A program made the position numbers and the translations under genes. A DNA stretch of 64,000 nucleotides from Urbifossiella limnaea (GTDB taxonomy: Bacteria; Planctomycetota; Planctomycetia; Gemmatales; Gemmataceae), in the NCBI RefSeq assembly GCF_007747215.1, contig NZ_CP036273.1:3022322-3086321 (forward strand). The letters run 5' to 3'. This document shows, one piece after another, positions 3,944 through 57,280 of the stretch. The notes below the pieces were generated by a model. It did not search any database, was not told the origin of the DNA, and worked only from the letters and a program-made list of their open reading frames with translations. Every line of letters starts with the position of its first letter. Positions within the stretch are counted from its first letter, which is position 1.

Positions 3944-4009
3944 AGCGGAGAGGGCGGGATTCGAACCCGCGGTAGGATTTTACTCCTACGCCGCTTTAGC
4001 AAAGCGGTG
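3944..4009 (-). repeat. Left attachment site: displaced 3' half of tRNA-Ser(GCU)
   Basis: This matches the right-end copy over 66 bp, from just beyond the discriminator base back through the T arm, variable arm and anticodon stem-loop. The 5' half of the tRNA is absent, so this is a remnant and not a working gene. There are only two differences from the intact copy, and they pair with each other in the variable-arm stem (A-U here, G-C in the intact tRNA). It is probably the chromosome's original 3' half, displaced when the element brought its own. Confidence 0.85.
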
Positions 4010-4068: not shown

Positions 4069-4144
4069 AAGGGAATTGTGCAATCGTCGCTCCCCGATGG
4101 GTTGACCCGGGTTGCCCGTAGTTGACCACCCTTGAGCCCTGTCA

Positions 4145-4165
4145 CAGCAACCACCACAGCAACCA
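4145..4165 (+). repeat. Two CAGCAACCA repeats, possible integrase arm sites (left)
   Basis: Two copies of CAGCAACCA start 12 bp apart (4145 and 4157), directly in front of the ATG at 4167. The same 9-mer occurs three times inside the right end (43747-43783), also with a 12-bp step between the first two. Short direct repeats inside both ends of an element are what arm-type binding sites of lambda-like integrases look like. Confidence 0.6.
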
Positions 4166-4166
4166 C

Positions 4167-5447
4167 ATGGCCCACATCCAGAAAATCGCCATCGTCCGCT
4201 GGGTCGTCTCGGTGCCCGGCGGGAAGGGGAAGAAGAAGTTCAAACGGGGGACCAAGGAGACCCCTGGGGCCGTCGCCCAGCAGACGGAGACCAAGAAATA
4301 CTACCTGTTCGACGGCGGCAAGCGGCTGCGAGCGCTGTACACGGACAAGAAGGCGTCGGAGCAAGCCCTGGCCGACTACGAGAGGGCGAAGGCACGCGGC
4401 GAGGTGGGGATGGTCGACGAGTTCTCGGCCCACTCCCAGACACCGAGTCAGCAGATGGTCGACCGGTACGTCGTCCACTTCCGGACCCAGCCCGGCAACG
4501 ACAAATACAAGGACGAGACCGTCCGTATCCTGCACGAGGTGGTCAACGCCTGTGCGCCGAACAAGCTCTCGGGCCTGACGGCCGAGCGGGTGCAGCAGTA
4601 CCTCGCGGCACTCAAGAAGAAGCCGACCAAATCCCACCCCGACCCCGGTCCTGCCGCTCCGAACACGAAGAAGAAGCACCACTCGGCAGTGAGCGGATTC
4701 ACCCGGTGGTTGTTCGAGAACGGCTACGCCCGGGAGAACGTGATGCTACGGGTGCCGGTCCCCAAGGGCGGCACCCAGCAGAAGGACAAGTTCCGCTCCC
4801 TCCGGCTCAAGGAGTTGAAGCGGCTCTTCAAGGTCGCCCTCACCCGCTGGGTTGAAGAGGCGTTGACCGTCCGGAACGGGCCCCGGAAGGGTAAGCAGGA
4901 GAAGAAGGTTCGCCCCGAGGTACTCGACGAGGCTCGCCTCCGGGGGCGGGGCAGGGCACTCGTCTACCGCACCGCCGCGCTGACGGGCTTGCGGCGGTCC
5001 GAGCTCGCCAAGGTCCGCCTCCGCTACCTCCGGAAGCCGAGGAAGCTGCCGTTTCCCATCTTCGACCTGCCGGGGTCGGTGACGAAGAACAAGAAGCCCG
5101 CGCGGCTCTGGGTGCTCCCGCGACTGGCGATGCGGTTGCGGCAGTGGGCGAAGGAGACGGGCAGGGGACCCGACGACCTGCTGTTCGACGTGCCCGGGAT
5201 TGCCGTCTTCCACGCGGACCGCGAGGCCGCTGGCATCCCCTTGCTCACCGAGCGGGGCAAGGCGTCCTTCCACTCCCTCCGCTCGGCCGGCAACGTCCTC
5301 CTCCGGAAGGCCGAGGTCCCCGTCACCACCCGCCGGCTGTTCATGCGGCACTCGGACCTCAAGCTGACCGACGCGACCTACGACGACGCCTCCCTGCTCG
5401 ACATGAAGGACATCGTCCCGAAGCTGGAGAAGTACAAGTTGGCGTGA
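4167..5447 (+). CDS. Tyrosine recombinase (integrase)
   Basis: A site-specific recombinase of 426 residues that would integrate and excise the element at tRNA-Ser. The N-terminal part is rich in lysine (probable arm-binding domain), followed by a SAM-like core-binding domain (residues about 90-200). The catalytic domain shows TGLRRSEL (first Arg near 276), a lysine after SVTKN, FHSLR (HxxR near 369-372), MRHSD and the nucleophile Tyr in DATYDD (near 404). An in-frame TTG at 4122 would add 15 residues, but those codons are the CAGCAACCA repeats, so I prefer the ATG at 4167. Neither start has a clear Shine-Dalgarno sequence. The gene reads inward from the left attachment site, as is usual for tRNA-integrated elements. 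Confidence 0.93.
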   Translation: MAHIQKIAIVRWVVSVPGGKGKKKFKRGTKETPGAVAQQTETKKYYLFDGGKRLRALYTDKKASEQALADYERAKARGEVGMVDEFSAHSQTPSQQMVDRYVVHFRTQPGNDKYKDETVRILHEVVNACAPNKLSGLTAERVQQYLAALKKKPTKSHPDPGPAAPNTKKKHHSAVSGFTRWLFENGYARENVMLRVPVPKGGTQQKDKFRSLRLKELKRLFKVALTRWVEEALTVRNGPRKGKQEKKVRPEVLDEARLRGRGRALVYRTAALTGLRRSELAKVRLRYLRKPRKLPFPIFDLPGSVTKNKKPARLWVLPRLAMRLRQWAKETGRGPDDLLFDVPGIAVFHADREAAGIPLLTERGKASFHSLRSAGNVLLRKAEVPVTTRRLFMRHSDLKLTDATYDDASLLDMKDIVPKLEKYKLA

Positions 5448-17402: not shown

Positions 17403-17972
17403 ATGACGCCTCGCCTGCTCACCGTCGCCTTCCTCGCCGCCGCGTGCCCGGTCGCCGCCGCCCCCATCCCCGAGGCCGCAAAGGAGCAGCCCCTCTACTT
17501 CCCGACAACGGTCGGGGCGAAGTGGGTGTACGAGCGCGCGGGCGTGGAGCAGGAGCCGGTCCGGGTCGTGTCAGTTGAGAAGTCGGGTAAAGAGGTGGTC
17601 GTAAGTCGGGCCGGGGCCGACGGAACCGCGTGGCGGTATGCGAAGGTGTTCGTGTCGCCTGCCGGGCTGCGGGAGAGTCGGTTGACACCAACGGGTAAGT
17701 CGGAGGTGGTGTGGGTGCTGAAGCTGCCGCTGAAGGCTGGAGAGTCGTGGGCCGTTGGCGAAATGAAGAGGACGGTACACGGGCCGGAGGCGGTGGACGT
17801 GCCGGCAGGTCGGTTCCAGGCCGTAAAGGTCGTCGACGAGCACGATAGCGGGGCACAACTGGTGGCGTGGTACGCGCCGGGTGTCGGACGGGTGAAGCAG
17901 GCGTCGGTCTCCCCGAAGGGGAAGGAGACTGTCACCCTGTTGCTGAAGTCGTTCACCCCGGGCCGGCCCTAG
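17403..17972 (+). CDS. Secreted paralog 1 of 3 (YFPTTVGAKWVY family)
   Basis: 189 residues. A signal peptide (MTPRLLTVAFLAAACPVAAA) precedes the mature domain, which starts with PLYFPTTVGAKWVYERAG. Later conserved parts are WVLKLPLKAGESW, VDVPAGRFQAVKV and AWYAPGVGRVKQ, ending in LLLKSFTPGR. The same order occurs in the next two genes, so this is a tandem triplication. The cysteine at residue 15 falls inside the signal rather than at a clear lipobox. Probably a periplasmic or surface beta-sandwich protein; ligand unknown. Confidence 0.75.
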   Translation: MTPRLLTVAFLAAACPVAAAPIPEAAKEQPLYFPTTVGAKWVYERAGVEQEPVRVVSVEKSGKEVVVSRAGADGTAWRYAKVFVSPAGLRESRLTPTGKSEVVWVLKLPLKAGESWAVGEMKRTVHGPEAVDVPAGRFQAVKVVDEHDSGAQLVAWYAPGVGRVKQASVSPKGKETVTLLLKSFTPGRP

Positions 17973-18059
17973 CCGCATCAGCAGGAAGGCCTTCCAGACT
18001 TCCCGCCTCGGCGCCGCCGCCCGGACCGGGTACGCTGCGGCGACCCGTGGAGGCCCAGG

Positions 18060-18695
18060 ATGATGCGCCTGCTCGCCGCTCTCGCCGTCGGTCTCGTTCT
18101 GGTGACCGCTGACGCCCCGGCTGCTCCTGTCGCCCCGCCGCCGCGGGAGGTCGCACACTACTTCCCGACGACGGTAGGGGCGAGGTGGGTCTATGTGCTG
18201 AGCAGAGAGGGCGAGCGGGACATCGAATCCGAGTTGGAGGTGACCGCCGTCCGGAACCGGCGAGACGGGGCCAGGGCAGTGACGACCTACCACAAGTACG
18301 GGGCGGGGTACGTCCCATACCAGATGCTGAACGTGTCCGCGCGGGGCGTCGGGGTGGTCGCGGCCATCGGTGGCGACTTCGGGGAACCGTTCTGGCTGCT
18401 CCGGACGCCCGCCGAGGCCGGGAAGAAGTGGGACGTGGTCCTCGACATCGTCGGGGTCGGCGTCGTGCGGACGGCGAAGGCGACGGCCCACGGCCCCGAG
18501 TGGGTCGAGGTCCCGGCCGGCAAGTACAGGGCTGTCCGAGTGGAGATGGACCTCACCTTCCGCGACGAGCGCCGCGTGACGACGACGTGGTACGCGGCCG
18601 GAATTGGGATGGTGAAGGAGAAGGTTGAGGAAGTGAATGGCACCACGGTCGAAGTGCTGAAGTCCTTCACCCCCGGCAAGGACGCAACCCCGTGA
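18060..18695 (+). CDS. Secreted paralog 2 of 3 (YFPTTVGARWVY family)
   Basis: 211 residues. A signal peptide (MMRLLAALAVGLVLVTADAPAA) is followed by HYFPTTVGARWVYVLSREG, the family signature. It shares the WLLRTPAEAGKKWD, VEVPAGKYRAVRV and TWYAAGIGMVKE blocks and the ending VLKSFTPGKD with its neighbours. It is longer than copy 1, with an inserted segment around residues 70-100. Its stop overlaps the GTG of copy 3. Confidence 0.75.
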   Translation: MMRLLAALAVGLVLVTADAPAAPVAPPPREVAHYFPTTVGARWVYVLSREGERDIESELEVTAVRNRRDGARAVTTYHKYGAGYVPYQMLNVSARGVGVVAAIGGDFGEPFWLLRTPAEAGKKWDVVLDIVGVGVVRTAKATAHGPEWVEVPAGKYRAVRVEMDLTFRDERRVTTTWYAAGIGMVKEKVEEVNGTTVEVLKSFTPGKDATP

Positions 18696-19276
18696 CCAAG
18701 CTCACCCTCCCCCTCCTGCTCATCTTCTTCACGGCGCTAGCCGCGGCGGCGCCCATCCCGGACGCGGCGAAGGCGACGGTGCTGTACTTCCCGACGAAGG
18801 TCGGGGCGAAGTGGACGTACACCCACAGCTACAAGAACCTACCGGAACACGAGACGGTCGATGGCGTGGTCGCCGTCGAGGAGGGGGCCGAAGGGACCAA
18901 GGTCGTCACCATCGGCCGACTCGCAGCAAAGGGTGGCCTCGGCCCGAACTGGCGGATGGTGGTTTCCAGCCGAGGGCTCTTCTGGAGCGAGAATCTGGCC
19001 AACGGGGGGCGACCCGACGACTCGGTGTGCGCCCTGAAACTCCCTCACCGGGATGGGCAGACCTGGATGCCCGGAGGACCGGACGCACGGGCGACGGCGT
19101 GGGGCCCGGTGCGGGTCACGGTCCCCGCCGGGGAGTTCAGCTGCATCCAGGTCGTGTCCCGGTGGCAACTTCTGCCGCCCGCGACCGAGTGGTATGCCCC
19201 AGGCGTCGGCCTCGTGAAGCGGCAGTCCCCCGACGCACTTGCCGTCCTGAAGTCCTTCGCCCCGGCGAAAGATTGA
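18692..19276 (+). CDS. Secreted paralog 3 of 3 (YFPTKVGAKWTY family)
   Basis: 194 residues from a GTG that overlaps the previous TGA by four bases. Signal peptide MTKLTLPLLLIFFTALAAAA, then LYFPTKVGAKWTYTHSY, LKLPHRDGQTW, VTVPAGEFSCIQV and EWYAPGVGLVKR, ending VLKSFAPAKD. It follows the same plan as copies 1 and 2, so all three arose by duplication and have since diverged. They are probably co-expressed and may assemble together or offer alternative surface forms. Confidence 0.75.
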   Translation: MTKLTLPLLLIFFTALAAAAPIPDAAKATVLYFPTKVGAKWTYTHSYKNLPEHETVDGVVAVEEGAEGTKVVTIGRLAAKGGLGPNWRMVVSSRGLFWSENLANGGRPDDSVCALKLPHRDGQTWMPGGPDARATAWGPVRVTVPAGEFSCIQVVSRWQLLPPATEWYAPGVGLVKRQSPDALAVLKSFAPAKD

Positions 19277-20148: not shown

Positions 20149-20736
20149 CTACGGGGCGAGCGTGGGGTCCCCCAGTATCTCAGCAACGGCCCGCTGCACC
20201 CGCCGCTTCCGGTCCGCCGAGACGGGGACTCCCGCTAGCATCATCAAGTAGAACGGGCGCAAGTCGAGAGGCAGCTGCTGGTCGATGAGCAGGGAGAGCT
20301 CGGAGCCGATGGCCTCGGGCTCGACCGACGACGGGGTCGTCATCCCCAGGATGGGCTCGATGCCGAGCGGCCTTGCGACGTTGGCCTTCGCCTTGTTCCG
20401 CGCCAGCCACTTCGCGTACGGGCGGCAGTGCTCGCCGTCGGCGCAGGGCGTCCCCTCGTGACAGCTTCTGCACGGTGGGTCTCGTCGGCTGACGTGGTCA
20501 CGATAGTAGTTGAGTGCCCGGTTCTTGGCATTGGTCATCAGGAAGCTCTCCAGGCGGCGGTTGGGGTCGTAAGCCGGGATTGCCTCAAGACTCCAGACGA
20601 TTACTTGTTGTGAGAAGTCCTCGGGCGAGCCGACGTGGGTGCCGAACTTGCGGTACAGGACCTTGGCGGCGTGAGCGGTCGCGGCGAGGAACTCGGCCTC
20701 GCTGATAGTCGGAGGCAACGTCACCTCGACGACCAC
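20149..20736 (-). CDS. Sigma-70-like factor with cysteine cluster
   Basis: 195 residues. Residues about 35-85 read as sigma region 2: EDFSQQVIVWSLEAIPAYD, RRLESFLMTNAKNRALNYYRDHV. Directly after comes an insert with four cysteines and a histidine (CRSCHEGTPCADGEHCRPY), likely to bind a metal. A short region-4-like stretch follows (LPLDLRPFYLMMLAGVPVSADRKRRVQRAVAEIL). The cysteine insert is unusual and could make promoter choice respond to redox or metals. The GTG start lies inside the 3' end of the upstream gene (16-base overlap), implying coupled translation. Probably directs RNA polymerase to element promoters. Confidence 0.65.
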   Translation of the reverse strand: MVVEVTLPPTISEAEFLAATAHAAKVLYRKFGTHVGSPEDFSQQVIVWSLEAIPAYDPNRRLESFLMTNAKNRALNYYRDHVSRRDPPCRSCHEGTPCADGEHCRPYAKWLARNKAKANVARPLGIEPILGMTTPSSVEPEAIGSELSLLIDQQLPLDLRPFYLMMLAGVPVSADRKRRVQRAVAEILGDPTLAP

Positions 20737-28530: not shown

Positions 28531-28886
28531 CAGGCGTCCGCCAGATGCGGCCGGGCGGCGTCCCGCACGCGGCCCGGGTTCGCCCGACGCGCGTGATGTC
28601 GCCCGGTTGCTCACGCGGTCGCGCGGGATGCGCCCACTCGCGCGGGTTTTTGACCGCGCGCTGTCTCGTTCATTTTAATTCGGTCTTCGGTCCGTAGGTC
28701 TCGGGCCGTTTGCCCTTCCTGCTCAGCAACGGACACCACGAACAACTCACAGGCCGAAACGGCGGGTCCGCCCGCCGTCCGCGTGTCAGGCACGCGCCGA
28801 CGAGGCCGGTTCACCTCAACTACGCGGGGCGGGGTGCTGTCACACCCCGCCCCGCTGGTTTTCCCCAGCTGTCACTGGAGAAGACG
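28531..28886. other. Intergenic region upstream of the GP88-like gene
   Basis: About 350 bases without a supported gene. An AT-rich patch (TCGTTCATTTTAATTCGG, near 28667) is the most likely promoter area. It is followed by a strong hairpin at 28824-28862. Confidence 0.4.
28824..28862 (+). terminator. Strong hairpin with T-rich tail before the GP88-like gene
   Basis: GCGGGGCGGGGTG (28824-28836) pairs perfectly over 13 bp with CACCCCGCCCCGC (28843-28855), followed by TGGTTTTCC. It sits only 24 bases before the next start codon, so it may be an attenuator of that gene rather than a plain terminator. Confidence 0.6.
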
Positions 28887-29738
28887 ATGGCGAAGGTACG
28901 TCCCAGGAAGGCGACGGTCAATGTCCGTGTCGAGACGAACTCCCAGGTCAGCATCACCGTTCGAGTCAAGTCTGAGCAGGAGAGGTTGGCGTTGAAGTTC
29001 GGCCAGGGCAACGCGAAGCTCTCGCAGGCCATCACCACGTTCAGCCTGCCCGCCGGCCACAGCTGCCCGTTCGCGCGCCAGTGCCTGAGCAAGTCGGACC
29101 GCGGAACCGGCATCATCAGGGACGGGAAGCACGTCCGCTTCCGGTGTTACGCCGCCACGATGGAGGCGCGGCGCCCCTCGGTGCGGCGGGCGCGGTGGCA
29201 TAACTACGACCAGCTGCGGGCGTGCCGGTCGGCCGAGGAGATGGCCCGGCTCATCCTCGACTCGCTGACCCCGTTCGCCGGGTGGGTGCGGGTCCACGAC
29301 TCCGGCGAGTTCTACTCGCAGGTCTACTTCGACGCCTGGGTGTTGGTCGCCCAGACCCGGCCGAGGACGACCTTCTACGCCTACACGAAGGCGCTCCCGT
29401 TCTGGCTCCAGCGGCTCGCCCTGGTCGGTGACGGGTACGAGCCGGGCGCCGTTCCGAACCTCGTGCTGACGGCCTCCCACGGCGGGACGCACGACCACTT
29501 CATTCGGGAGCACCGGCTCCGGTCGGCCAGCGTCGTGTACTCCCAGGTCGAGGCCGACGACCAGGGCCTGGAGGTCGACCACGACGACACGCACGCGATG
29601 GAGCACGGGTACGACTTCGCCTTGCTCTTGCACGGCCAGCAGCCGGCCGGGAGTGAGGCCGCGAAGGCCGCGCGGGCTCTGCGGGACGCCGGGTTCAGCG
29701 GGTACGGCAAGTCGCGGTTCCCCTTGAGCGTCATCTAG
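28887..29738 (+). CDS. GP88-like phage-type protein
   Basis: 283 residues. The conserved core matches the GP88 family first named from mycobacteriophage: LKFGQGNAKLSQAITTFSLP, AGHSCPFARQCLSKSD, RFRCYAATMEARRPSVRRAR, then WVRVHDSGEFYSQVYFDAW and PNLVLTASHGG. Several conserved cysteines suggest a metal site. The biochemical role of GP88 proteins is not established; they occur in phages and other mobile elements. The ATG at 28887 has GGAGAAG upstream. It follows a strong hairpin that could attenuate it. Confidence 0.75.
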   Translation: MAKVRPRKATVNVRVETNSQVSITVRVKSEQERLALKFGQGNAKLSQAITTFSLPAGHSCPFARQCLSKSDRGTGIIRDGKHVRFRCYAATMEARRPSVRRARWHNYDQLRACRSAEEMARLILDSLTPFAGWVRVHDSGEFYSQVYFDAWVLVAQTRPRTTFYAYTKALPFWLQRLALVGDGYEPGAVPNLVLTASHGGTHDHFIREHRLRSASVVYSQVEADDQGLEVDHDDTHAMEHGYDFALLLHGQQPAGSEAAKAARALRDAGFSGYGKSRFPLSVI

Positions 29739-36919: not shown

Positions 36920-37954
36920 TCAAGCCGCGAGCCACCTCGTCACCTCCGCGGCCGGAATCTCGCCCACGTCCTTGTACCCACTCGGCGGATGCCGGACGGT
37001 CGCGCTGACGCCTTCCCGACGGAGCAAGGTCACAATCGACGCGGCGGCGCGGGTGCCGGCCGGGTCGTTGTCGAACGCCACCACAACGGGCTTGTTCAGG
37101 ACGGCGAGCTTGAGTGCCTGCGGCACGGAAAGGTCGGTCCCGAACCCGGCGACAGCGACGACGCCCGCCTCGGCCGCGCGGAGCACGTCCGTGACGCCCT
37201 CGACCAGCAGGACGAACGGGCTGACGGACCGGACGGCCGCGGCGTAGTTGAACAGGTAGTCGCCCTTCGGAAAGCCCTGGGGGAACCACCACCTGGGCTC
37301 CCCCCGCGCGCAGCTGTCGGCCGGGTGGTGGCACTTCGAGCAAGTGCCGCAGGGCGGCTTCGTCGAGCGGTAGACGGCGCCGACGCAGGCGTGGCCGCGG
37401 TCGTCGTACACGGGGGCTACCGCCCACCCGTACCTCCGGGACTCCCCGATGTCGTAGCGGTCGAGCACGGCGGGCGAGAACCCCCGGCTCAGGAAGTACG
37501 GGGAGGGGAGGAGGAGCCGCCGCCGGACTTCCGCACGGGTCAGCGACAGGGTCGGCCGCGTCGGCCGCTCAGCGGGTTGGCGGACGGCCGTGGGGCGGTC
37601 GCCCTCGCGGGCGAGGAAGTCCTCGACGAAGGCGACGGCCTTGGCCATCGTCGCCGGCCGGTCGGGGTCGCCCGTCAGCGCCCCTCGGACCAGCCCCAGG
37701 AGGTTCCCCTTCAGCTTCGCGGCCTTGTGACACCTGTGGGAGTGGCAGGCCCAGTAGACGGGGAACTTCTCCCCGTCGGTCCCCACCACGAAGTTCGTGT
37801 CCGCCCCCTTGTGGACCGGGCACCGGCCCCGGAAGCGGTCCCCGCCCGGGTAGCCCTTCACCTCGCACCCGAGCTCGGCCAGCAACTCGTCCAGTCGGCC
37901 GGACGCCAGCACGGCAGCGGACAACTCGTTGTTGGCCGCGTTCCAGTTCTCCAT
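36920..37954 (-). CDS. DnaG-like primase (CHC2 zinc finger and TOPRIM)
   Basis: 344 residues. The zinc-binding domain shows RCPVHKGADTNFVV and YWACHSHRCHK (residues about 44-80). The TOPRIM domain shows LLVEGVTDVLRAAEAG with the catalytic Glu, and VVAFDNDPAGTRAA with the metal-binding DxD-type acids (residues about 240-300). A second cysteine group (CGTCSKCHHPADSC) lies between them. It is about half the length of chromosomal DnaG and lacks the helicase-binding C-terminal domain, as in phage and plasmid primases. It would lay RNA primers for the element's own replication. AGGAG precedes the ATG. It is the last gene of the minus-strand replication block. Confidence 0.85.
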   Translation of the reverse strand: MENWNAANNELSAAVLASGRLDELLAELGCEVKGYPGGDRFRGRCPVHKGADTNFVVGTDGEKFPVYWACHSHRCHKAAKLKGNLLGLVRGALTGDPDRPATMAKAVAFVEDFLAREGDRPTAVRQPAERPTRPTLSLTRAEVRRRLLLPSPYFLSRGFSPAVLDRYDIGESRRYGWAVAPVYDDRGHACVGAVYRSTKPPCGTCSKCHHPADSCARGEPRWWFPQGFPKGDYLFNYAAAVRSVSPFVLLVEGVTDVLRAAEAGVVAVAGFGTDLSVPQALKLAVLNKPVVVAFDNDPAGTRAAASIVTLLRREGVSATVRHPPSGYKDVGEIPAAEVTRWLAA

Positions 37955-38192
37955 CTAGCTCCTGTTGCTCCGCTGGTAAGGCGGGAAGAGGGGAGGAGAG
38001 GCGAGGGGCGGGCCACCCCGCGACAGCCCCCACCCTTCCTTCCGCCTTACCCGCAAGGACGTGTAGCCTGTCGGTCGGCCTCGTTTGGCGAGTTTGACCT
38101 CCCGTGGCGAGCCGGCCCATGCCGGTCGCTCCGAATCATCTACTGAAAGGGTAATCGTTCCCAACTGGCTCAACTGGCGGCACGAAATCCCG
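37955..38192. other. Gap between primase and sigma-factor genes
   Basis: 238 bases. An open frame on the minus strand (37955-38173, TTG start, 72 residues beginning MSQLGTITLSVDDSERPAW) has fair composition in its first half but low-complexity sequence later. I list it as possible only. Confidence 0.3.
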
Positions 38193-38849
38193 CTACCCGG
38201 CGATTTTCCGGCTCACCCCGTAGAACGCCCGCAGCATTGCGATGGCCGCGTTGTGCCGGCGGCGGACGGTCCCCCGGTCGAGCCCCAACGCGACCGCCAC
38301 CTCCCGGAGCGAGTACCGCTCCCAGTACGTCATCCGGACCACGACGAACTCGTCAGGGGCGAGTCGACCGAGGGCCTCGGGGAGGGCGTCGACCCACTCC
38401 CGCTCGACCCGGTCGTAGGGGCTCCCCCCGTCCCGCCGGAGCCGCCGCTCGGCCCCGGGCGTGAGTTCCTCCCGGCGAACCCTTCTGCGCCGCCGCTTGG
38501 CCTCCCGCCGGAGCCGGTCGAGGACCCGGTACTCCAGCTGGGCCTTGAACAGGTTGGCGAAGTGGCCCCCCAGCGGGAGCCGGTCGTGGCACTTGGCAGG
38601 GTCGAACGTCCGAAACAGTCCCCGCGGCCGCGACCCAGGGAAGCCGAGGGTCGTGTACATCGCCTCGACGAACTCCTCCTCGGTGAGGCGGTCGCGGAAC
38701 CGGGGGTAGACCGTCTTGAAGGCGAGGTTGAACAACCGCAGGGGGTTGGGTGGCGCCCACCGACACCGCTCGGCCGAGTAGTAGTCTGCAAACTCCCGGT
38801 ACAGCCGCTTCCTCGCCGCGGCCGACGCATGGTTCGTCTGGCTCATCAA
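38193..38849 (-). CDS. Sigma-70 family RNA polymerase sigma factor
   Basis: 218 residues. Region-2-like helices lie between about 30 and 125 (HFANLFKAQLEYRVLDRLRR and a basic run). Region 4 is clear at the C-terminus: ALGRLAPDEFVVVRMTYWER followed by the helix-turn-helix YSLREVAVALGLDRGTVRRR. It is an ECF-size factor without an anti-sigma neighbour. Its start overlaps the stop of the AAA+ ATPase gene by four bases, so it is made together with the replication proteins and may direct transcription of the element. Confidence 0.8.
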   Translation of the reverse strand: MMSQTNHASAAARKRLYREFADYYSAERCRWAPPNPLRLFNLAFKTVYPRFRDRLTEEEFVEAMYTTLGFPGSRPRGLFRTFDPAKCHDRLPLGGHFANLFKAQLEYRVLDRLRREAKRRRRRVRREELTPGAERRLRRDGGSPYDRVEREWVDALPEALGRLAPDEFVVVRMTYWERYSLREVAVALGLDRGTVRRRHNAAIAMLRAFYGVSRKIAG

Positions 38850-39835
38850 GCTGACACGCTCGTCCCGGCCTCCGTCTCACCGGCCGACAGCTGAGACACT
38901 TGAGACAGCTGAGACGCGGCCGTCCCGACCAGGGCCAAGGCCCTGTACAGCTCAGCCCGGGACTTCCCCGTCTCGGCCTGCCATGCCACAAGTCGCTCCG
39001 GCGCCGGCAGATGGGCGATGCGGCCGGCCACCTCGACCTCCTGGGCGTTCCTCTGCGCGCGGACACCGAAGCCGCCCAGCGGAGCAACCACCCGCTCCTT
39101 CATCCGGCTCTCCAGCAGGTCGAGCCAGTGTGTCACCGACGACCCGTTCTCGAACTGGATGCGGTCCTTGAACGTGTTGACCAACAGGCGCAGGTCGAGG
39201 TTCCGCCGCAGCCGACTCGACCGAGCGATGATTTCCTCGGCCACCTCCGAGCACTCGTCCGGCGACAGCGCGTATGGCCCGTGGTCGTGCCCCTTCCGGG
39301 CGATGACCCGCATCAGCGCCGCAACCTCTTCGTTGGTAGGGAGATACTGCAAGCACGGAACGCGGGTCTTGATGGCCCGCAGCTGCGGGAGGTCGTCGAG
39401 CCCGCAGTTGGCCACCAGGATGATGCCGCCGGTGAAGACGAACTCGTCGCGGAGGGGGCCGGTCTGCCAGCACACCAGCCTCTCCTGCTTACCGTCCCGG
39501 CCGACCTGCCCCCAGAGGGCCGACCGCAGAACGCCGGACGTGGTCTTGTCCGCGAACATGGCCTCGGCGTCCTCGATGACGTGGACGGCGTCGGGGAAGT
39601 CCCGAAGGAGCTTGAACAGGCCCTTGCCCGTCAACCGGCTGTTCGTCAGCTTGTAGGGCGTGCCCAGTTGCTGGAGGGTCTGCTCGACCGTGTAGCTCTT
39701 GGAGGTGCCGCCCTCACCCCACAAGTAAAACCCGGTCTGATACCCCTCGGCCACGCCCTGGACCCTGTCCCGGATGAGTTGCTGCTTGTGCTCCAGGGAC
39801 TCCAGCAGGGCGGCGTCCCGGTCGTCGGTCGTCAA
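38846..39835 (-). CDS. AAA+ ATPase, helicase or loader-like
   Basis: 329 residues. Walker A: YLWGEGGTSKSYTVEQ (residues about 38-53); Walker B: AVHVIEDAEAMF (about 86-97); sensor 1: GGIILVANCGLDDL (about 137-150). A region resembling sensor 2 with RRNLDLRLLVNTFKDRI follows. The C-terminal tail is Ser/Ala-rich. Being encoded with a primase, it is likely the element's replicative helicase or a helicase loader. A TTG start is supported by AGGAG five bases upstream. Its stop overlaps the sigma-factor start (ATGA). Confidence 0.75.
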   Translation of the reverse strand: MTTDDRDAALLESLEHKQQLIRDRVQGVAEGYQTGFYLWGEGGTSKSYTVEQTLQQLGTPYKLTNSRLTGKGLFKLLRDFPDAVHVIEDAEAMFADKTTSGVLRSALWGQVGRDGKQERLVCWQTGPLRDEFVFTGGIILVANCGLDDLPQLRAIKTRVPCLQYLPTNEEVAALMRVIARKGHDHGPYALSPDECSEVAEEIIARSSRLRRNLDLRLLVNTFKDRIQFENGSSVTHWLDLLESRMKERVVAPLGGFGVRAQRNAQEVEVAGRIAHLPAPERLVAWQAETGKSRAELYRALALVGTAASQLSQVSQLSAGETEAGTSVSA

Positions 39836-39875
39836 AGTGTCTCCTGGTAAGGGGTTAAGGGGGCGGTCTGCGCCG

Positions 39876-40010
39876 TCACGGCGCGCACCCGCCCGTTGGG
39901 TCGATGTTGACCCGCTCGATGGTCAAGTCGTTGGCGTGAGTGTTAGCCGGGTCCGATTCGTCCGCGCGCAGCCGGGAACGCCGGCCCCGCTGCACGACGC
40001 CTACGGTCAA
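39876..40010 (-). CDS. Possible 44-residue protein in the replication operon
   Basis: A frame from a TTG at 40010 encodes TVGVVQRGRRSRLRADESDP, ANTHANDLTIERVNIDPTGG, ending CAP. The composition is protein-like and it sits between two operon genes. No strong ribosome site, so it may be a remnant. Confidence 0.35.
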   Translation of the reverse strand: MTVGVVQRGRRSRLRADESDPANTHANDLTIERVNIDPTGGCAP

Positions 40011-40050
40011 CTTCTGTCCAGCTAGGTCTTGGTCAGTCGAAGGGTGGGGG

Positions 40051-40473
40051 TCACCACCGGTCGCGGTCGGGCACGTCGGCGCCCGGAATCCCGCGGGTGA
40101 ACGGCAGGTACTCCTCGGTCCGCTCGACGTGGTGGAAGGTGGCGTAGCCGCTCGCGGTGAACAGCCGGACCTGCCCGTAGCTCCCGGCCTCGATGTCCCA
40201 CCCGTCCGGCAGGACCGCGGCGAGGTAGGACTTCGTCTCGCACCACACCTTTGCCACGAGCGACTCGTTCTCGACCTCGACGCCGCCCTTGAACATGGCG
40301 ACCCGGAGGAGGTCCAAGTCGTCGTGCATGGCGTCGTAGTCGGCCTCGACCATGTCGATGCCGGCCCGCAGCAGGACCTCGAACACGGTCCGCTCGGCGT
40401 CCACAGCCTGAACTTCCTGCTCATTCTCCCTCGCGCTCGTCCTCAAGCTCTTGTCCCTCCAGTAGTTGCGCAC
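40051..40473 (-). CDS. Hypothetical protein heading the replication operon
   Basis: 140 residues from a GTG. Begins MRNYWRDKSLRTSAREN and continues with helices (TVFEVLLRAGIDMVEADYDA) and strands (LPDGWDIEAGSYGQVRLFTA). No family recognised. It is first in the minus-strand order 40473 to 36920 that includes the ATPase, sigma factor and primase, so a role in replication control is possible by position only. Confidence 0.55.
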   Translation of the reverse strand: MRNYWRDKSLRTSARENEQEVQAVDAERTVFEVLLRAGIDMVEADYDAMHDDLDLLRVAMFKGGVEVENESLVAKVWCETKSYLAAVLPDGWDIEAGSYGQVRLFTASGYATFHHVERTEEYLPFTRGIPGADVPDRDRW

Positions 40474-40711
40474 CCCGGCCCAGGCGGCGTTGTTCCGCTG
40501 GAGCGCACGGCCCCGAGGGCCTACGAGGTGCTGGTGTGGTTGTTGACCCGAATCGAGCCGACCGGCCGATTGCGGCAGGGCTCGTTCGTCGAGGTTTCGC
40601 CTGATGGTAACCTGACTTTGAGGTCTGTCAACTAGCTCCCGCGGCTAAATCGACCGCGAGCGTCGCAGCTGACTCGCGTCGACGCGAGCGGAGAAGTCGT
40701 TTCCACCCCCA
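40474..40711. other. Divergent intergenic region of the replication block
   Basis: About 240 bases between the leftward replication operon and the rightward ParB-like gene. No gene is supported. This would be a natural place for a replication origin or partition site, but I see no clear iterons. Confidence 0.35.
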
Positions 40712-40741
40712 TTGACAGATTCACAACCCGTGGTCTGATAC
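40712..40741 (+). promoter_or_regulatory. Promoter P1 upstream of the ParB-like gene
   Basis: TTGACA (40712-40717), an 18-base spacer containing AACCCGTGGTC, then TGATAC (40736-40741). It is almost the same sequence as the promoter at 42060-42089. The predicted transcript would have a leader of about 37 bases before the ATG at 40785. Confidence 0.7.
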
Positions 40742-40784
40742 AGGGGTCTACGGACACCCCGTGGCCCCCGTCCAAGGAGAGAGA

Positions 40785-41867
40785 ATGCCGAAGAGGAGCG
40801 AGACCATCAGCGGCCGAGAACCGGCGGGCCGAGCGGTCCTGCCCGTCCGTGGGTACCTCTTCTTGGCGGAACTCCGGATGGAAGTCTCCGCCCGGGTCCG
40901 GGTGAAGCCCTGCCCGGACACAATCACGCGGTACGCGGAGGTACTGGCCGACGACCAGAGCTTCAGCCCGGTGGTGGTCTTCCGCGACCCGGACGGCGTG
41001 CTCTGGCTGGCCGACGGGTGGCATCGGGTCGAGGCCGCGAAGGTGGCCGGGCGGGACAAGCTCGTCTCGGAGATTCACGAGGGAAGCGAGGCGGACGCCT
41101 TCTTGTACGCCGCCCAGGCCAACCTGAAGCACGGGCTGGCTGCGACCAAAGCCGACCGCAAGCAAGTCGCCACCCTCCTGCTCAGGAGCCCGGAGTGGGG
41201 GGCGTGGGGCGACCGGGAGATTGGCCGTCTGAGCGGGCTGAACGACAAGACGGTAGCCACACTCCGTAAGGAGCTATCCGCGGAAAATCCGCAGAAGCCA
41301 TCCGCGGAAATTCCGCAGATGAGGGTTGTGCGCCGGAAGGGCACCACCTACACGATGGCGACGGGTCAAGCAAAGACGGCGATACCAAACACCAGCGGTG
41401 CGTCCGTCTCGAACTCACCCAATACGGACCAGCGACCCGAAGTCCCATCCACTCCGGTGGTTGAGGGACCGGCCGACCCTGCCCCGCCGATTCACGACGC
41501 CGCGCCCGAGCTCGTGTCGGCCCCACCGAGCGGACCACCCGTCGATGTTGCCCCGCCCGCGCCCGCGGCACGGACCCGGGACTGGGCGACGGACCCGTTG
41601 GACATCGACTTCATGATTGACAGCGGGCTGCTGTTCGAGCTCAACCGGAGGGTGCTTCACCCATTCGGAATCCGCTTGGTCGTCCGGGTTGCCGACACCG
41701 GGGAGAAGTCGTGGGGGTTGAAGGACTGTCGGTCCGACCCGCGGTCGTTGTCGTTCCCCCCGGCAGTACAGGCGCAGGCGGAGGAGAAGTTCGCCCGGTT
41801 CCTTGAGGCGTTCGGACGGGCGCAGCTCGACCGGCCGGCGCGAAGAGAAGAAAGTATTGGGTCGTGA
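40785..41867 (+). CDS. ParB/Srx-like nuclease-fold protein
   Basis: 360 residues. Residues about 30-150 fit the ParB N-terminal and HTH regions: TITRYAEVLADDQSFSPVVV, WLADGWHRVEAAKVAGRDKL (compare the DGxHRxxA box), VLYAAQANLKHGL-type box AFLYAAQANLKHGLAATKAD, then the helix-turn-helix DREIGRLSGLNDKTVATLRK. A Pro/Ala-rich linker of about 110 residues separates a C-terminal domain (DPLDIDFMIDSGLLFELNRR). It could act in partition, in gene regulation or as a replication accessory. No ParA is beside it. AAGGAGAGAG precedes the ATG, and promoter P1 lies just upstream. Confidence 0.75.
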   Translation: MPKRSETISGREPAGRAVLPVRGYLFLAELRMEVSARVRVKPCPDTITRYAEVLADDQSFSPVVVFRDPDGVLWLADGWHRVEAAKVAGRDKLVSEIHEGSEADAFLYAAQANLKHGLAATKADRKQVATLLLRSPEWGAWGDREIGRLSGLNDKTVATLRKELSAENPQKPSAEIPQMRVVRRKGTTYTMATGQAKTAIPNTSGASVSNSPNTDQRPEVPSTPVVEGPADPAPPIHDAAPELVSAPPSGPPVDVAPPAPAARTRDWATDPLDIDFMIDSGLLFELNRRVLHPFGIRLVVRVADTGEKSWGLKDCRSDPRSLSFPPAVQAQAEEKFARFLEAFGRAQLDRPARREESIGS

Positions 41868-42059
41868 CGTGGCGGCACCGAATACATCACGATTGGCATG
41901 GTGATGCCCGCCACCGCTCGACGGGCCGATGGCGTGTTGGGCGACAGCTCCGAGCCGCAATGCTTATAAATGTAATCGGTTAGGACCGATTTCGGCCCCG
42001 TTATTCAACGCATCTAATCACGAGTTTCTCGTCCTCGGCCCACCTTTTATTTCAACGTA
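41868..42059. other. AT-richer spacer with an inverted repeat
   Basis: About 190 bases that are clearly less GC-rich than the surroundings. AATCGGT-TAGG-ACCGATT (41974-41991) is a perfect 7-bp inverted repeat with a 4-base loop, a possible terminator of the ParB-like gene or an operator. Confidence 0.45.
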
Positions 42060-42089
42060 TTGACAGATGCGGAAACCGTGGTCTGATAC
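42060..42089 (+). promoter_or_regulatory. Promoter P2 upstream of the HExxH-HTH operon
   Basis: TTGACA (42060-42065), an 18-base spacer containing AACCGTGGTC, then TGATAC (42084-42089). Over 30 bases it differs from promoter P1 mainly at a few spacer positions. The first gene starts 254 bases downstream, leaving a long untranslated leader. Confidence 0.7.
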
Positions 42090-42342
42090 GGACGGCGACT
42101 ACCCGTACGAATCCACCCAACGCCCTCCGGTTCGAGCCTGAAGTCCACACTCCGGCTCGTCGCAGCCGTCGCGGGCCGTCCCCGCGCAGGGTGAGTCCTC
42201 GGCCCGACCTCCATCGTCGGTGGTAGCATCGGCCCTGGCGCCACAGGGGCATCTGACAGAACTTGAGCAGCGAGGTCATCCACGAGGCCCATGGGCCGAC
42301 GTGCCCCGCTGCGCGCCTTCATCCCCCTACCTGGAGAGCATC

Positions 42343-43161
42343 ATGCTCAAGTACGCTTGTTCGGATACGGCGATGGACACCGCTTACCACGAGGCCGGCC
42401 ATGTGGTCGCCGGGATGGGCCTCGGGTGCCGGCCGGAGGAGGTTTACATCCGCGAGGACTCGTCCGGCGGGGTGAGGTGGCTGGACTGGGCCGAGGGCCA
42501 GTCCATCGCCCAGGTCCGGCGGGAGCTCGTCCACCTCGTGGCCGGTCCGCTGGCCGAGTTCCTCCACGAGGCCGAGGAGTCGATGTACACCCGCTCGCGC
42601 TGGGCCGACCGACTTGACCCGGGCGACTGGGAGGTGTCGTGGCGCTTGCTGAGCGCCCGCATCCGCCGCGGCGAGACCGGGGACGAGGCGGCGAGGTGCG
42701 ACACGGCCGAGGCCTGGTTCCTCGCCCGGGAGGTGTGCCGCCGGTTGACGTTGCACGACGCCGGGAGGTGGGACGAGCGGCGTGTACGGGCCGACATCCT
42801 GCACCAGCACGGCCGGGCCGACTTCTACTGGGTGACCGGGCCGTTCGTCGCCGTCCGCGAGGGCGACCCGTCGGCTGACGAGTTCGAGATGTTGGGCGAC
42901 GAGGAAGACAGCGAGATGTCGTTCCGGCCCACCGGCCCCATCACCCCGCCCGAGGTCGCCCCGGCCGAGGTGCTGGCGGAAGTCGTCCGCGCCGAGCGGT
43001 GGGCCGAGCGGCTGTTGCGGCGGCGGTGGGCGGCGGTGACAGCCGTGGCCGAGGCCCTCTACCGGAGCAAGAGCGGGTCGTTGACGGGGAAGCGGGTGCA
43101 GACCCTCATCTCCTCGGCCGACCGCTCGTCTCGAAGCAGGGCCAAGAGGGCGTCAGCATGA
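42343..43161 (+). CDS. HExxH-motif protein (zinc-peptidase-like)
   Basis: 272 residues. The N-terminus has AYHEAGHVVAGMGLG, the HEAGH zinc-peptidase signature seen in FtsH-type and related proteases, followed by a helical domain with HLVAGPLAEFLHEAEES, whose acidic residues may give the third zinc ligand. The rest is helical and acidic, with a basic end. GGAGAG is placed before the ATG at 42343. Its TGA overlaps the ATG of the HTH gene. A protease next to a DNA-binding regulator near an attachment site recalls the ImmA-ImmR switch of some integrative elements, but the sequences are not obviously related. Confidence 0.65.
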   Translation: MLKYACSDTAMDTAYHEAGHVVAGMGLGCRPEEVYIREDSSGGVRWLDWAEGQSIAQVRRELVHLVAGPLAEFLHEAEESMYTRSRWADRLDPGDWEVSWRLLSARIRRGETGDEAARCDTAEAWFLAREVCRRLTLHDAGRWDERRVRADILHQHGRADFYWVTGPFVAVREGDPSADEFEMLGDEEDSEMSFRPTGPITPPEVAPAEVLAEVVRAERWAERLLRRRWAAVTAVAEALYRSKSGSLTGKRVQTLISSADRSSRSRAKRASA

Positions 43162-43745
43162 GCCGAGTGAAGGAGGACTTGCTCCACGCCGAGGAGGACG
43201 CCGAGTCTGCGGCGTGGACGGCGAGCCCGGAGGGTCGGGCCGAGAAGGAACGAGCGACCCGGGCACAGGCGGCGGCTGACGCGGAGCGGGCACGTCGGGA
43301 GCAAGCCTGGGCGTCCGAGCGCCCGGTCGAGTGGGCCGAATGGCAGCGGTTGCAGCCCCTGCTCGTCCCCGTCATCGACTTCGGGGGCGACATGCGGTTC
43401 GACTTCGACAACTTCCTGATGGAGGTCGGTCGAGCCCCCTCGCCTGCTCACCGGGTCGTCCGCAAGGCCAAGGCTCTCCCGTACAAGCAAGGGAACCTGC
43501 GCTGGAAGGCGGCAACCCCGCCGAAGACTAACCCGTCACCGGCGCCTTCAAGGGCTGCGGCCCAGGCTGCGAGCGACTTCCTCACCAAGCAGGAGGTTGC
43601 AGACCGCCTTCAGGTCTCGACTCGGACGGTGTCCCGGTGGAGGTCTGAGGGCCTGCTGAAGGAGTTCCGCCGGGGGCAGGTTCTCCGCTTCAAGCTGGAG
43701 GACGTGGAGGCGTTCGAGGCGAAGGGTCGGAGTGGGCGCCGATGA
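43158..43745 (+). CDS. HTH protein, excisionase-like, next to the right attachment site
   Basis: 195 residues. A long charged N-terminal helix (AEEDAESAAWTASPEGRAEK, AAADAERARREQAWASERPV) leads to a C-terminal HTH of the excisionase/MerR type: DFLTKQEVADRLQVSTRTVS, RWRSEGLLKEFRRGQVLRFK, LEDVEAFE. Excisionase-like HTH domains commonly bind arm regions next to att sites; here the CAGCAACCA repeats begin at the very stop codon. Start overlaps the previous stop (ATGA). Likely a directionality factor or regulator of integration. Confidence 0.75.
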   Translation: MSRVKEDLLHAEEDAESAAWTASPEGRAEKERATRAQAAADAERARREQAWASERPVEWAEWQRLQPLLVPVIDFGGDMRFDFDNFLMEVGRAPSPAHRVVRKAKALPYKQGNLRWKAATPPKTNPSPAPSRAAAQAASDFLTKQEVADRLQVSTRTVSRWRSEGLLKEFRRGQVLRFKLEDVEAFEAKGRSGRR

Positions 43746-43838: not shown

Positions 43839-43842
43839 TTAG

Positions 43843-43931
43843 CGGAGAGGGCGGGATTCGAACCCGCGGTAGGGTTTTACCCCTACGCCGCTTTAGCAAA
43901 GCGGTGCTTTCGACCACTCAGCCACCTCTCC
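43843..43931 (-). tRNA. tRNA-Ser(GCU)
   Basis: 89 bases reading GGAGAGGTGGC at the 5' end and CCTCTCCG at the 3' end. The anticodon loop TTGCTAA gives anticodon GCU. A long variable arm, as expected for tRNA-Ser, is present (GTAGGGGTAAAACCCTAC), and the T arm has GGTTCGAATCC. The CCA end is not encoded. The 3' 64 bases are shared with the left attachment remnant, so this tRNA is probably a hybrid: chromosomal 5' half and element-supplied 3' half. Confidence 0.95.
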
Positions 43932-54766: not shown

Positions 54767-57280
54767 TCACTCCTTCGTGGCCGCCATCGGCGGCTCCGGC
54801 GGCGTCAGGTCGCCCTTCGAGTTGTACGGCTGCCACGCCAGGCCGAGGGCCAGCGCCCGGTCGCGCTTCGCCACGATGGCCCACGGCGTCCCCTTGTACG
54901 TGGTGATCATCGCGTCGAAGATTTCGTGCGCCTCCACGAGGTACTGCTTCTCCTTCTTCACCTTCATCGTCGGGCTGGACACCAGCCGATACCCGTCGTG
55001 CAACTTCGGGTCGCGGGCCGGCAGCACCTCGGTCTTGATGTTGCCCAGCGCCAGGTTGTACTCGTGGAGGTACGCCAGCCGGGCTTTCGCGTGGGCCACC
55101 GCGTAGTCGTAGTGGGCCTGCCACCGCTTCGACTGCTGGGGCTTTTTCGGCTCGACCGCCTCCAGGAGGAACAGCACCTGCTCGACCCGCGGCGTCGCCA
55201 CGGCCAGGTAGTCCTGTTCGCGGCCGACCTCCTTCTTGAGGCGCTCGTCGATGACCCCGGTGAACGAGTCGCGGAGCTTCCCGCGGCCGGAGTCGCCCCA
55301 CACGTCGCGCATCGTCTCGAAGCCCTCGACGACCGCCAGTTGGAAGGCGTACTTCTCCTTGTTCCCGGGCATCTTCATCTCGCTGACGGAGACGTCGGCC
55401 TTGTACGCGGCGAGCGTGTCGGCCGGGAACGGGAACGCCCCCAACTCGGCGATCGCGTCGTCGCCGGTGATCGGCGGCAGCGCGAACTCCGCCACCAGGT
55501 CGGCCACCGACGCACCCTTCGGCGGGGCCGGCATCTCGAACCGCTTCGCCGGCGCCTCGTCCTTGTTGGCCGCTGTGAGCGCCTGCGGGGCGGTGCCGTA
55601 GACCTTCACCGTCTGGGCGAACTTGCCGCCCTTCTCGCCGGACGACGCCAGCGCGGCGGCCTCGTTCACCTTCTTCGCCAGCGTCGCGGCCCAGTCGTCC
55701 ACCGGGATCGGGTCGTTCTCGCCGAGGTTCTTGCCGCCGCCCTTCACGAAGCGGGTGAGGTCGAGGAAGGCACTCCCGGCGATCTTCTTGTTCAGGTCGA
55801 GCGTGTCGAACGACTGGTTGTAATACTCCAGGGCGTTCTCACCGGGTTGGCACGTGAGAATGACCTGCACGCCGGCCGGTGCCGGCTCGGTGAGGAGCTT
55901 GGCGACCGCCTCGCTCATCGGCTCGCTGCCGGGCCTCAAGCGGCCGCGTTCCGGGTTGTACCGGCACACGTCCCACACAATCACCTTCTGCGTCGCCTTG
56001 CAGGCCTTCACCTTGGCGAACACGTCGGCAACGGGGATGAGCGTCTCCACGTCCTCGGGGTCGCCCTCCATCGGCACCAGGAACGCCTCCTCCTTGTCTT
56101 CCATCTTCTTGGTGAAGACGTGGCCGCCGTAGTACATGACGATGCGGTCCTGCGGGCGGCAGGTGTCGAGGAACAGGTCGATGGCCCCGGCCATCACCGG
56201 CTTCATCGGCTGCTCCTTGTCGGAGACGACGAACGCCTGGTTGTTGTCCTTGTCCCGCGGCACTCGCCACTCGTGGGCGAGGCGGTTCGCGGCGTGCAGC
56301 GTCAGGTCCGGCCCCTTGCTGCCGTTTACCATCGACGCCGTCGTCAGCGGGTTGAGGTAGAGGTAGTTGCTGACCTGGATGAACAGCAGCCGCCGCGGCA
56401 GGCCGGACGAGCCGGTCACCAGCGGCGAACGGTTCGGGTTCGACGCGGGGCCGCCCTTCGGGTTACCCGGGTCGGGGTTCGTCGGGTGGTTGTTGGCCTG
56501 CTCCTTCAGCTTCTTGAAGTACGGCACCCCGACGGCGACCCCGGCGACGAGGCTGACCGCGAGCGCGACGGCGACGCCGATCCACGCCGCCTTGCTGCTG
56601 CCGCGGCCGCGCTGGTAGCCGGCCTTGCCGCGGCTGTGGGCGGCGGTTGCCTCCGAGACGGCCTTGAACTCTTTGCCGGGCTTGAACCCGTTTACCGACT
56701 CGGGCACAGGGGCGGGCGTCGGTGGCAGGGGCGCCACGGGGGCGGGGACTGGGGCGGGTTGGGGGTATGCCGCCGCGGTCGGGTCGTACGGCGCCGGCTG
56801 CGGGTAGCCCGGGGGTGGGCCGTAGCCGGGTGGCATGGGATACGGGTAGCCCGGGGGTGGGCCGTAGCCGGGTGGCATGGGATACGGGTAGCCCGGGGGT
56901 GGGCCGTACCCGGGCGGCATGGGATACGGGTAGCCCGGGGGTGGGCCGTACCCGGGCGGCATGGGATACGGATAGCCCGGGGGTGGGCCGTACCCGGCGG
57001 GGTGATACGCGGCGGGGTCGTAGGCCGGCGGGGGTGGGGCTACGCCGCCGACATCGGGGTCAAACGGGTTGTACGCAGCCGGTCGCGTCGGGCCGAGTTC
57101 CGCAAAAGCGTTGTCCGCCGGCTGCTCGACGGGGGCCGCCGGCGCGGGCGTGTCGCCGGCGCTCTTGGTACGCACGACGGCCCCGCACTTCTTGCACTTC
57201 ACCGACTGCCCCGCCCACTTGGCAGGAATCTTCAGGCCGGTGTTACAGCTCGGGCAGGTCGCGCGGATCGTCCCGTCCAT
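54767..57280 (-). CDS. Caspase-like protein with zinc ribbon and GYGPPP repeats
   Basis: 837 residues. Order of parts: an MJ0042-type zinc ribbon (CPSCNTGLKIPAKWAGQSVK, then CKKCG), a Pro/Tyr-rich stretch with 14-residue repeats (GYGPPPGYPYPMPP, residues about 95-165), a transmembrane helix near 229-251, then a caspase-like domain. The probable catalytic His is in VMYYGGH (about residue 386) and the Cys in VIVWDVCRYNP (about 437), matching the caspase/metacaspase order. A C-terminal helical region follows. Similar caspase-like proteins are frequent in planctomycetes and may act in stress or cell death; the target is unknown. Confidence 0.8.
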   Translation of the reverse strand: MDGTIRATCPSCNTGLKIPAKWAGQSVKCKKCGAVVRTKSAGDTPAPAAPVEQPADNAFAELGPTRPAAYNPFDPDVGGVAPPPPAYDPAAYHPAGYGPPPGYPYPMPPGYGPPPGYPYPMPPGYGPPPGYPYPMPPGYGPPPGYPYPMPPGYGPPPGYPQPAPYDPTAAAYPQPAPVPAPVAPLPPTPAPVPESVNGFKPGKEFKAVSEATAAHSRGKAGYQRGRGSSKAAWIGVAVALAVSLVAGVAVGVPYFKKLKEQANNHPTNPDPGNPKGGPASNPNRSPLVTGSSGLPRRLLFIQVSNYLYLNPLTTASMVNGSKGPDLTLHAANRLAHEWRVPRDKDNNQAFVVSDKEQPMKPVMAGAIDLFLDTCRPQDRIVMYYGGHVFTKKMEDKEEAFLVPMEGDPEDVETLIPVADVFAKVKACKATQKVIVWDVCRYNPERGRLRPGSEPMSEAVAKLLTEPAPAGVQVILTCQPGENALEYYNQSFDTLDLNKKIAGSAFLDLTRFVKGGGKNLGENDPIPVDDWAATLAKKVNEAAALASSGEKGGKFAQTVKVYGTAPQALTAANKDEAPAKRFEMPAPPKGASVADLVAEFALPPITGDDAIAELGAFPFPADTLAAYKADVSVSEMKMPGNKEKYAFQLAVVEGFETMRDVWGDSGRGKLRDSFTGVIDERLKKEVGREQDYLAVATPRVEQVLFLLEAVEPKKPQQSKRWQAHYDYAVAHAKARLAYLHEYNLALGNIKTEVLPARDPKLHDGYRLVSSPTMKVKKEKQYLVEAHEIFDAMITTYKGTPWAIVAKRDRALALGLAWQPYNSKGDLTPPEPPMAATKE
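56806..57000 (-). repeat. 42-bp tandem coding repeats
   Basis: A 42-bp unit encoding GYGPPPGYPYPMPP is repeated about four and a half times inside the caspase-like gene. Copies differ by single bases (TAGCCGGGTGG versus TACCCGGGCGG), so the number could vary between strains. Confidence 0.8.

Follow-up and report, generated by a model that had tools for sequence, protein, structure and literature searches.

A candidate AAA+ replication initiator with an iteron-like array and an exchangeable primase in a tRNA-Ser-integrated mobile element of Urbifossiella limnaea

Introduction

Little is known so far about the replication of planctomycete mobile elements, and a 64,000-nucleotide stretch of the Urbifossiella limnaea genome (contig NZ_CP036273.1, positions 3,022,322 to 3,086,321; hereafter, the window) raises the question of how one such element might initiate the copying of its DNA. 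The window contains a gene module in which a primase, a sigma factor and an AAA+ ATPase are read leftward, and a ParB-like protein, a HExxH protein and a helix-turn-helix (HTH) protein rightward. An initial annotation had interpreted it as a replication and partition module within an integrated element, with the sigma factor coupled to the replication operon; its gene assignments and directions are borne out, whereas as a whole its observation is confirmed in part and its interpretation supported in part.

In this work we computed the boundaries of the element, the identities of its genes, the fold class of the ATPase, the conservation of array position in the ATPase family, the covariation of array words with the HTH and the replacement of the primase in relatives. 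The reading we consider probable is that the module constitutes the replication-initiation cassette of a mobile element integrated at a tRNA-Ser gene, with an iteron-binding AAA+ initiator and an exchangeable primase.

Methods

The host genome comprises 7.8 Mb in a single contig and belongs to the family containing Gemmata; named relatives include Gemmata sp. IIL30 and Zavarzinella formosa. Homologues were sought in 102 genomes of the order. AAA+ clades were assigned following published definitions (PMC5039278). The relationship between array words and recognition helices observed in a first set of loci was fixed in writing as a prediction, after which 40 further loci were fetched, almost all of them belonging to other orders. 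Expectation values are given as E.

Results

The array lies at the 3′ end of the ATPase gene, reads TCTCAGCTGTCTCAAGTGTCTCA on the minus strand and encodes SQLSQVS, with one opposed TCTCA copy at 38875-38879. The initial annotation had proposed a search for iterons near 40474-40711, but no iterons occur in that divergent region, nor in 41868-42342. TCTCA triples at the array spacing have a single occurrence in the host genome and none in a reversed-pattern control. Over the 102 genomes the triple search is by itself unspecific (15 matches, against 6 with the pattern reversed), so that only the location of a triple with respect to the ATPase gives it significance. The ATPase gene has three TCT codons, all within the array; TCT is a rare codon that accounts for 11 of 335 serine codons in 18 genes.

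The position of the array is conserved in relatives. Around the ATPase stop codon of 36 loci, TCTCA/TGAGA is the most enriched 5-mer (53 occurrences versus 11 expected), and 9 of these loci have TCTCA pairs spaced by exactly 8 or 9 bp next to the stop, against 0.04 expected. A second word, TGTCA/GTCAA, is present at five loci, with at most 0.02 expected. Genes of the family often bear an array with an 8- or 9-bp period, either 3′-terminal or just upstream, reaching seven to eight copies at locus L038. Arrays within the gene (the window, L031 and L032) have a spacing of 9 bp and so preserve the reading frame, whereas arrays outside the gene mostly have 8 bp. Separately, at L115 (G094:C4:842142-842249), the gene for a RecA-like ATPase, which is not related to the AAA+ family, ends in a 9-bp TCTCACCCG array with a ETGETGETGETG tail; an array in the opposite orientation lies 76 bp from it and a further one at 3.2 kb. 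This may be the same use of iterons by a different replication ATPase.

The word that makes up the array covaries with the recognition helix of the ATPase HTH. In the first set, loci carrying TGAGA encode an HTH ending in TGKS-x-A/P/K and loci carrying TGTCA one ending in TGKS-x-R (11 versus 6 loci, p 8e-5). When the tree is built from the ATPase body without the HTH, the word switches at least twice (L047 within the TGTCA group and L039 within the TGAGA group), and the helix residue changes with it both times. The out-of-sample prediction held at all four loci carrying either word (L156, L163, L171 and L177). Over both sets, TGAGA accompanies TGKSxA/P/K/S and TGTCA accompanies TGK(S/C)xR (13 versus 8, p 5e-6, uncorrected for shared ancestry). 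Two further classes, recognized after the fact, pair TGGAA arrays with KSTFYKR-type helices (L165, L166, L167 and L172) and CGGAA arrays with FYER or WYDR helices (L173 and L183). A single in-gene TCTCA pair at L045 accompanies a different helix type and was counted as chance. We consider it very probable that the ATPase binds the array.

The initial annotation had left structure prediction to decide whether the ATPase is a helicase or a loader, a question that the AlphaFold model (predicted local distance difference test score 83.5, ten sequences) answers in part, the fold class being assigned from this one model. The predicted structure displays Walker A and B motifs, a pre-sensor-1 hairpin (residues 117-134), sensor 1 (N143), a lid, a candidate arginine finger (R158), sensor 2 (R216) and a C-terminal HTH (278-305). 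Because the hairpin directly precedes sensor 1, the ATPase would belong to the pre-sensor-1 superclade (PMC5039278), and because the lid helices come after sensor 1, a superfamily 3 (SF3) helicase or Rep is excluded. The presence of the hairpin and the lack of an additional helix between alpha2 and beta2 in the model set it apart from the initiator clade (DnaA/DnaC/Orc). A DnaB-type replicative helicase was likewise rejected, the modelled core being an AAA+ core with lid instead of a RecA-type core. On this model, then, the ATPase has the build of a ring motor and is not a helicase of the DnaB kind or a loader of the DnaC/DnaA type.

Foldseek matches to NorQ/CbbQ, RuvB, RFC and ORC chains have modest template modelling (TM)-scores, and phage AAA+ proteins are also matched. 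No significant sequence match was obtained in Pfam, NCBIfam or PDB; the only one is to phrog_1250 (E 5e-10), comprising AAA+ proteins of the T4-like nrdC.10/nrdC.11 region. Homologues are present in 28 of the 102 genomes, and many occur across the class. No close relatives of the ATPase turned up in phages, plasmids or IMG/VR viral contigs; the matches there were remote, to T4-like and jumbo phages. Of 35 family neighbourhoods, in which clusters were identified by reading sequences, about half encode a serine or tyrosine recombinase nearby. We found no description of the family in the open-access literature searched, which is not proof of absence. As a side observation, homologous 490-aa proteins near the ATPase at L032:11333-12805 and L047:11801-13270 show family A polymerase-like motifs by eye; PDB and PHROG profiles gave no confirmation and a PolA-like assignment was not retained.

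The inference of an integrated element in the initial annotation is upheld by 66-bp repeats at a tRNA-Ser(GCT) gene and a tyrosine integrase, which place the module in a 39.9-kb element, at its right end. ARAGORN calls a degraded tRNA-Ser at the left repeat, and the integrase, with R..HxxR..RHS..Y residues recognized by eye, begins 113 bp inward from it. In another genome of the genus, contig G091:C1028 carries the same tRNA-Ser attachment (att) sequence next to a related integrase, together with a gene for an AAA+ homologue, and the tRNA-Ser gene has therefore been used repeatedly. In an empty-site comparison by joined flanks, five congeners showed 77-85% conservation on the right side and none on the left. 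Congener genomes G089, G091 and G092 contain isolated att copies of 66-70 bp, which point to other insertions and suggest an integration hot spot in the genus.

The closest relative illustrates that the gene next to the ATPase can be replaced. At L031/L086, in Gemmata sp. IIL30, five genes are syntenic with the window element (gp88 at 72%, the others at 39-55%) and are followed by an array-bearing ATPase 77% identical to that of the window. In place of the sigma factor and TOPRIM primase, this locus encodes a Prim-Pol (PF09250, E 3e-18), and by sequence the primase slot is exchangeable. The window primase is DnaG-type, combining a CHC2-like zinc finger and TOPRIM without a helicase domain (Toprim_2, E 1.5e-11; phrog_47 DNA primase, E 2e-28; TIGR01391, partial; PDB DnaG 2au3, E 2e-9).

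The sigma factor matches TIGR02937 (E 2e-13, over the cut-off) and Sigma70_r4 (E 2e-9). Neither it nor the primase has close relatives in the 102 genomes. Queries with the sigma factor returned nothing in the neighbourhoods of 35 other ATPase-family members; sigma thus appears to adjoin the ATPase only in this element, and a general coupling of sigma factors to replication is not supported. Nor is the ATGA overlap on which that coupling had been based present: the ATPase/sigma junction reads TGATG, a 1-base overlap with an ATG start that would extend to four bases (TTGA) only if sigma started at TTG, and 238 bp (37955-38192) separate sigma from the primase. The sole ATGA overlap in the module (43158-43161) joins the HExxH and HTH genes. 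Partition fared no better than coupling. The ParB-like protein matches no Pfam ParB model, only a phage ParB-like family; the ORFs (open reading frames) of the element include no ParA-type P-loop protein and the module intergenic regions no parS-like repeats, so a ParABS system is not supported by sequence.

The coordinates of these features are compiled in Table 1. The shared divergent region of the initial annotation holds for the ParB-like gene, whereas the HExxH/HTH pair has a promoter-like copy of its own and an additional ORF intervenes on the left. Searches of Pfam and PHROG gave no significant match for that ORF or for the HExxH protein. TTGACA-N17-19-TGATAC has only two sites in the whole 7.8-Mb genome, the near-identical elements preceding the ParB-like and HExxH genes, which are therefore probably co-regulated.

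Table 1. Features of the element and its right-end module (window coordinates)
Feature	Position	Strand	Basis
attL-type copy: 66-bp repeat, 3′ part of tRNA-Ser(GCT)	3944-4009	-	direct repeat, 97% identical to 43841-43906
Tyrosine integrase, left end of element	4122-5447	+	phrog_1 integrase, E 7e-23
TOPRIM primase	36920-37954	-	profile matches
Sigma-70/extracytoplasmic function (ECF)-like sigma factor	38193-38846	-	profile matches
AAA+ ATPase, candidate replication initiator	38846-39835	-	AlphaFold, Foldseek, family search
Iteron-like array of three TCTCA-N4 copies with period 9, within ATPase gene 3′ end	38892-38914	-	repeat search
140-aa ORF between ATPase and divergent region	40051-40473	-	coding-like third-position G+C (GC3), 0.96
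Sigma-70-like promoter TTGACA-16-TACCAT, for the side of the 140-aa ORF, ATPase and sigma	40604-40631	-	consensus match only
Perfect 16-bp palindrome CTCGCGTCGACGCGAG between divergent promoters, candidate operator	40673-40688	.	sequence
30-bp promoter-like element, copy 1 (TTGACA-N18-TGATAC), precedes ParB-like gene	40712-40741	+	consensus
ParB-like DNA-binding protein, likely start 40785	40761-41867	+	phrog_1033, E 2e-8
30-bp promoter-like element, copy 2, precedes HExxH gene	42060-42089	+	nearly identical to copy 1
HExxH protein (HEAGH), putative metallopeptidase	42343-43161	+	motif by eye
HTH_17/excisionase-type protein, next to right element end	43158-43745	+	HTH_17, E 2e-11; phrog_66 excisionase, E 6e-10
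attR: 66-bp repeat inside intact tRNA-Ser(GCT) (43842-43931)	43841-43906	-	ARAGORN, repeat comparison

Elsewhere in the element, three neighbouring ORFs at 17403-19276 match DUF3108_like, two of them directly overlapping, and represent tandem paralogues carried as cargo. A second sigma-70 region 2 protein (20149-20736) adjoins a DJ-1/PfpI protein, and the product of 28710-29738 is a GP88 protein (PF17338, E 6e-44) that is 72% conserved in the syntenic element of L031. Long direct repeats at 1180-2258 and 56801-57000 lie in flanking chromosomal DNA, outside the element.

Discussion

In the mechanism we put forward, the element would first be excised, presumably by the integrase together with the HTH_17 excisionase-like protein, and would replicate thereafter. 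The C-terminal HTH of the ATPase would dock on the array at the 3′ end of its own gene, and the ATPase would assemble there as a ring and open or remodel the DNA. The neighbouring DnaG-type primase would then prime synthesis, with the polymerase, and probably DnaB as well, supplied by the host. The array would accordingly act as an origin rather than only as an operator, whatever role the sigma factor may have. That binding of the array serves replication is, in our judgement, a reasonably probable proposition.

Several points weigh against this reading. Excision and binding of the array by the ATPase are inferred from sequence, and the Fisher p-values take no account of common ancestry other than through the two switches that the tree requires. 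No more than about half of the examined family members have a recognized array, a recognizable primase is absent beside the ATPase in most other family loci, and no AT-rich melting region adjoins the window array, where local AT content is 32%. The nearest phage relatives of the ATPase are uncharacterized and no homologue has an established role.

The main rival is pure autoregulation, in which the ATPase would bind arrays only to control its own transcription, as an autorepressor at an operator, its ATPase activity would serve another role, such as remodelling of the integrase complex, and the primase would be an unrelated neighbour. The scarcity of primase neighbours among relatives agrees with this, as do arrays in the ATPase promoter region in L037, L044, L046, L047, L156 and others; the 5′ arrays of the first four fit autoregulation equally well. 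However, many members, including the window, bear arrays at or past the 3′ end, with up to the seven to eight copies of L038, a poor site for a promoter operator, and the two nearest loci pair the same ATPase with different primase types, so that we regard autoregulation alone as unlikely. The module could also be inert, as part of a decayed genomic island or prophage remnant: the scanned ORFs of the element include no phage structural or conjugation genes, and a transposase and many ORFs without assigned family are present. Intact module ORFs with strong coding bias, att repeats that are 97% identical, catalytic residues that are kept and an array that is maintained make such decay improbable. 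The full initial interpretation, in which replication is joined to partition and a sigma factor is coupled to replication as a general design, could draw on the ParB-like fold match, a genuine sigma factor and an overlapping ATPase-sigma junction. Given the missing ParA-type and parS-like components, the lack of sigma beside the 35 other family ATPases and the gap between sigma and the primase, we deem it highly improbable. Its other half, a replication module in an integrated element, has good support from the att repeats, the integrase, the primase and an AAA+ protein whose gene bears arrays that are conserved in position and apparently co-vary with the HTH.

A replication-initiation cassette of this kind has parallels in known systems. 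Replication origins of phage-inducible chromosomal islands (PICI) lie immediately 3′ of rep and contain iterons (PMC6092414). Like the pri-rep-ori modules of PICI and Staphylococcus aureus pathogenicity islands (SaPI), the module belongs to an integrated element with an integrase and an excisionase-like gene, and combines a primase and a candidate initiator ATPase with short iteron-like repeats at the 3′ end of the ATPase gene. The order here is AAA-sigma-primase, and the ATPase combines an AAA+ lid with a C-terminal HTH, in contrast to the SF3/helicase Rep of PICI. Moreover, the array is partly in coding sequence, there is no AT-rich core between two iteron sets, and the 40-kb element contains no recognized packaging genes and no phage-interference genes that we found. 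DnaA is likewise an AAA+ ATPase whose C-terminal HTH reads short repeated boxes, its 9-mers; the ATPase described here falls in the pre-sensor-1 hairpin group rather than the initiator clade, has no sequence match to DnaA and has boxes at a fixed 8- or 9-bp period. RuvB and NorQ-CbbQ (MoxR) are its best solved-structure fold matches, sharing the lid and pre-sensor-1 hairpin, yet the TM-score is only about 0.45, sequence similarity is lacking and the context differs. The phrog_1250 proteins are its sole phage relatives in both sequence and structure. In lambda, the ori iterons fall within the coding part of O, the initiator gene, a location shared with the window array, whereas the O protein is not an ATPase and its sequence is unrelated.

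Conclusions

The evidence leaves evenly balanced the broader proposal that these proteins form a new family of AAA+ initiators across mobile elements of the class, in which 8-bp iterons (9 bp when inside the gene) in or beside the initiator's own gene would be read by a C-terminal HTH through a simple helix code of at least four words (TGAGA, TGTCA, TGGAA and CGGAA), in combination with interchangeable primases. The match between word and helix amounts to a falsifiable protein-DNA code that pinpoints candidate origins in dozens of elements, and the presence, next to the same ATPase and a syntenic flank, of either an archaeo-eukaryotic Prim-Pol or a DnaG-type primase provides a clean natural case of primase replacement in planctomycete mobile elements.

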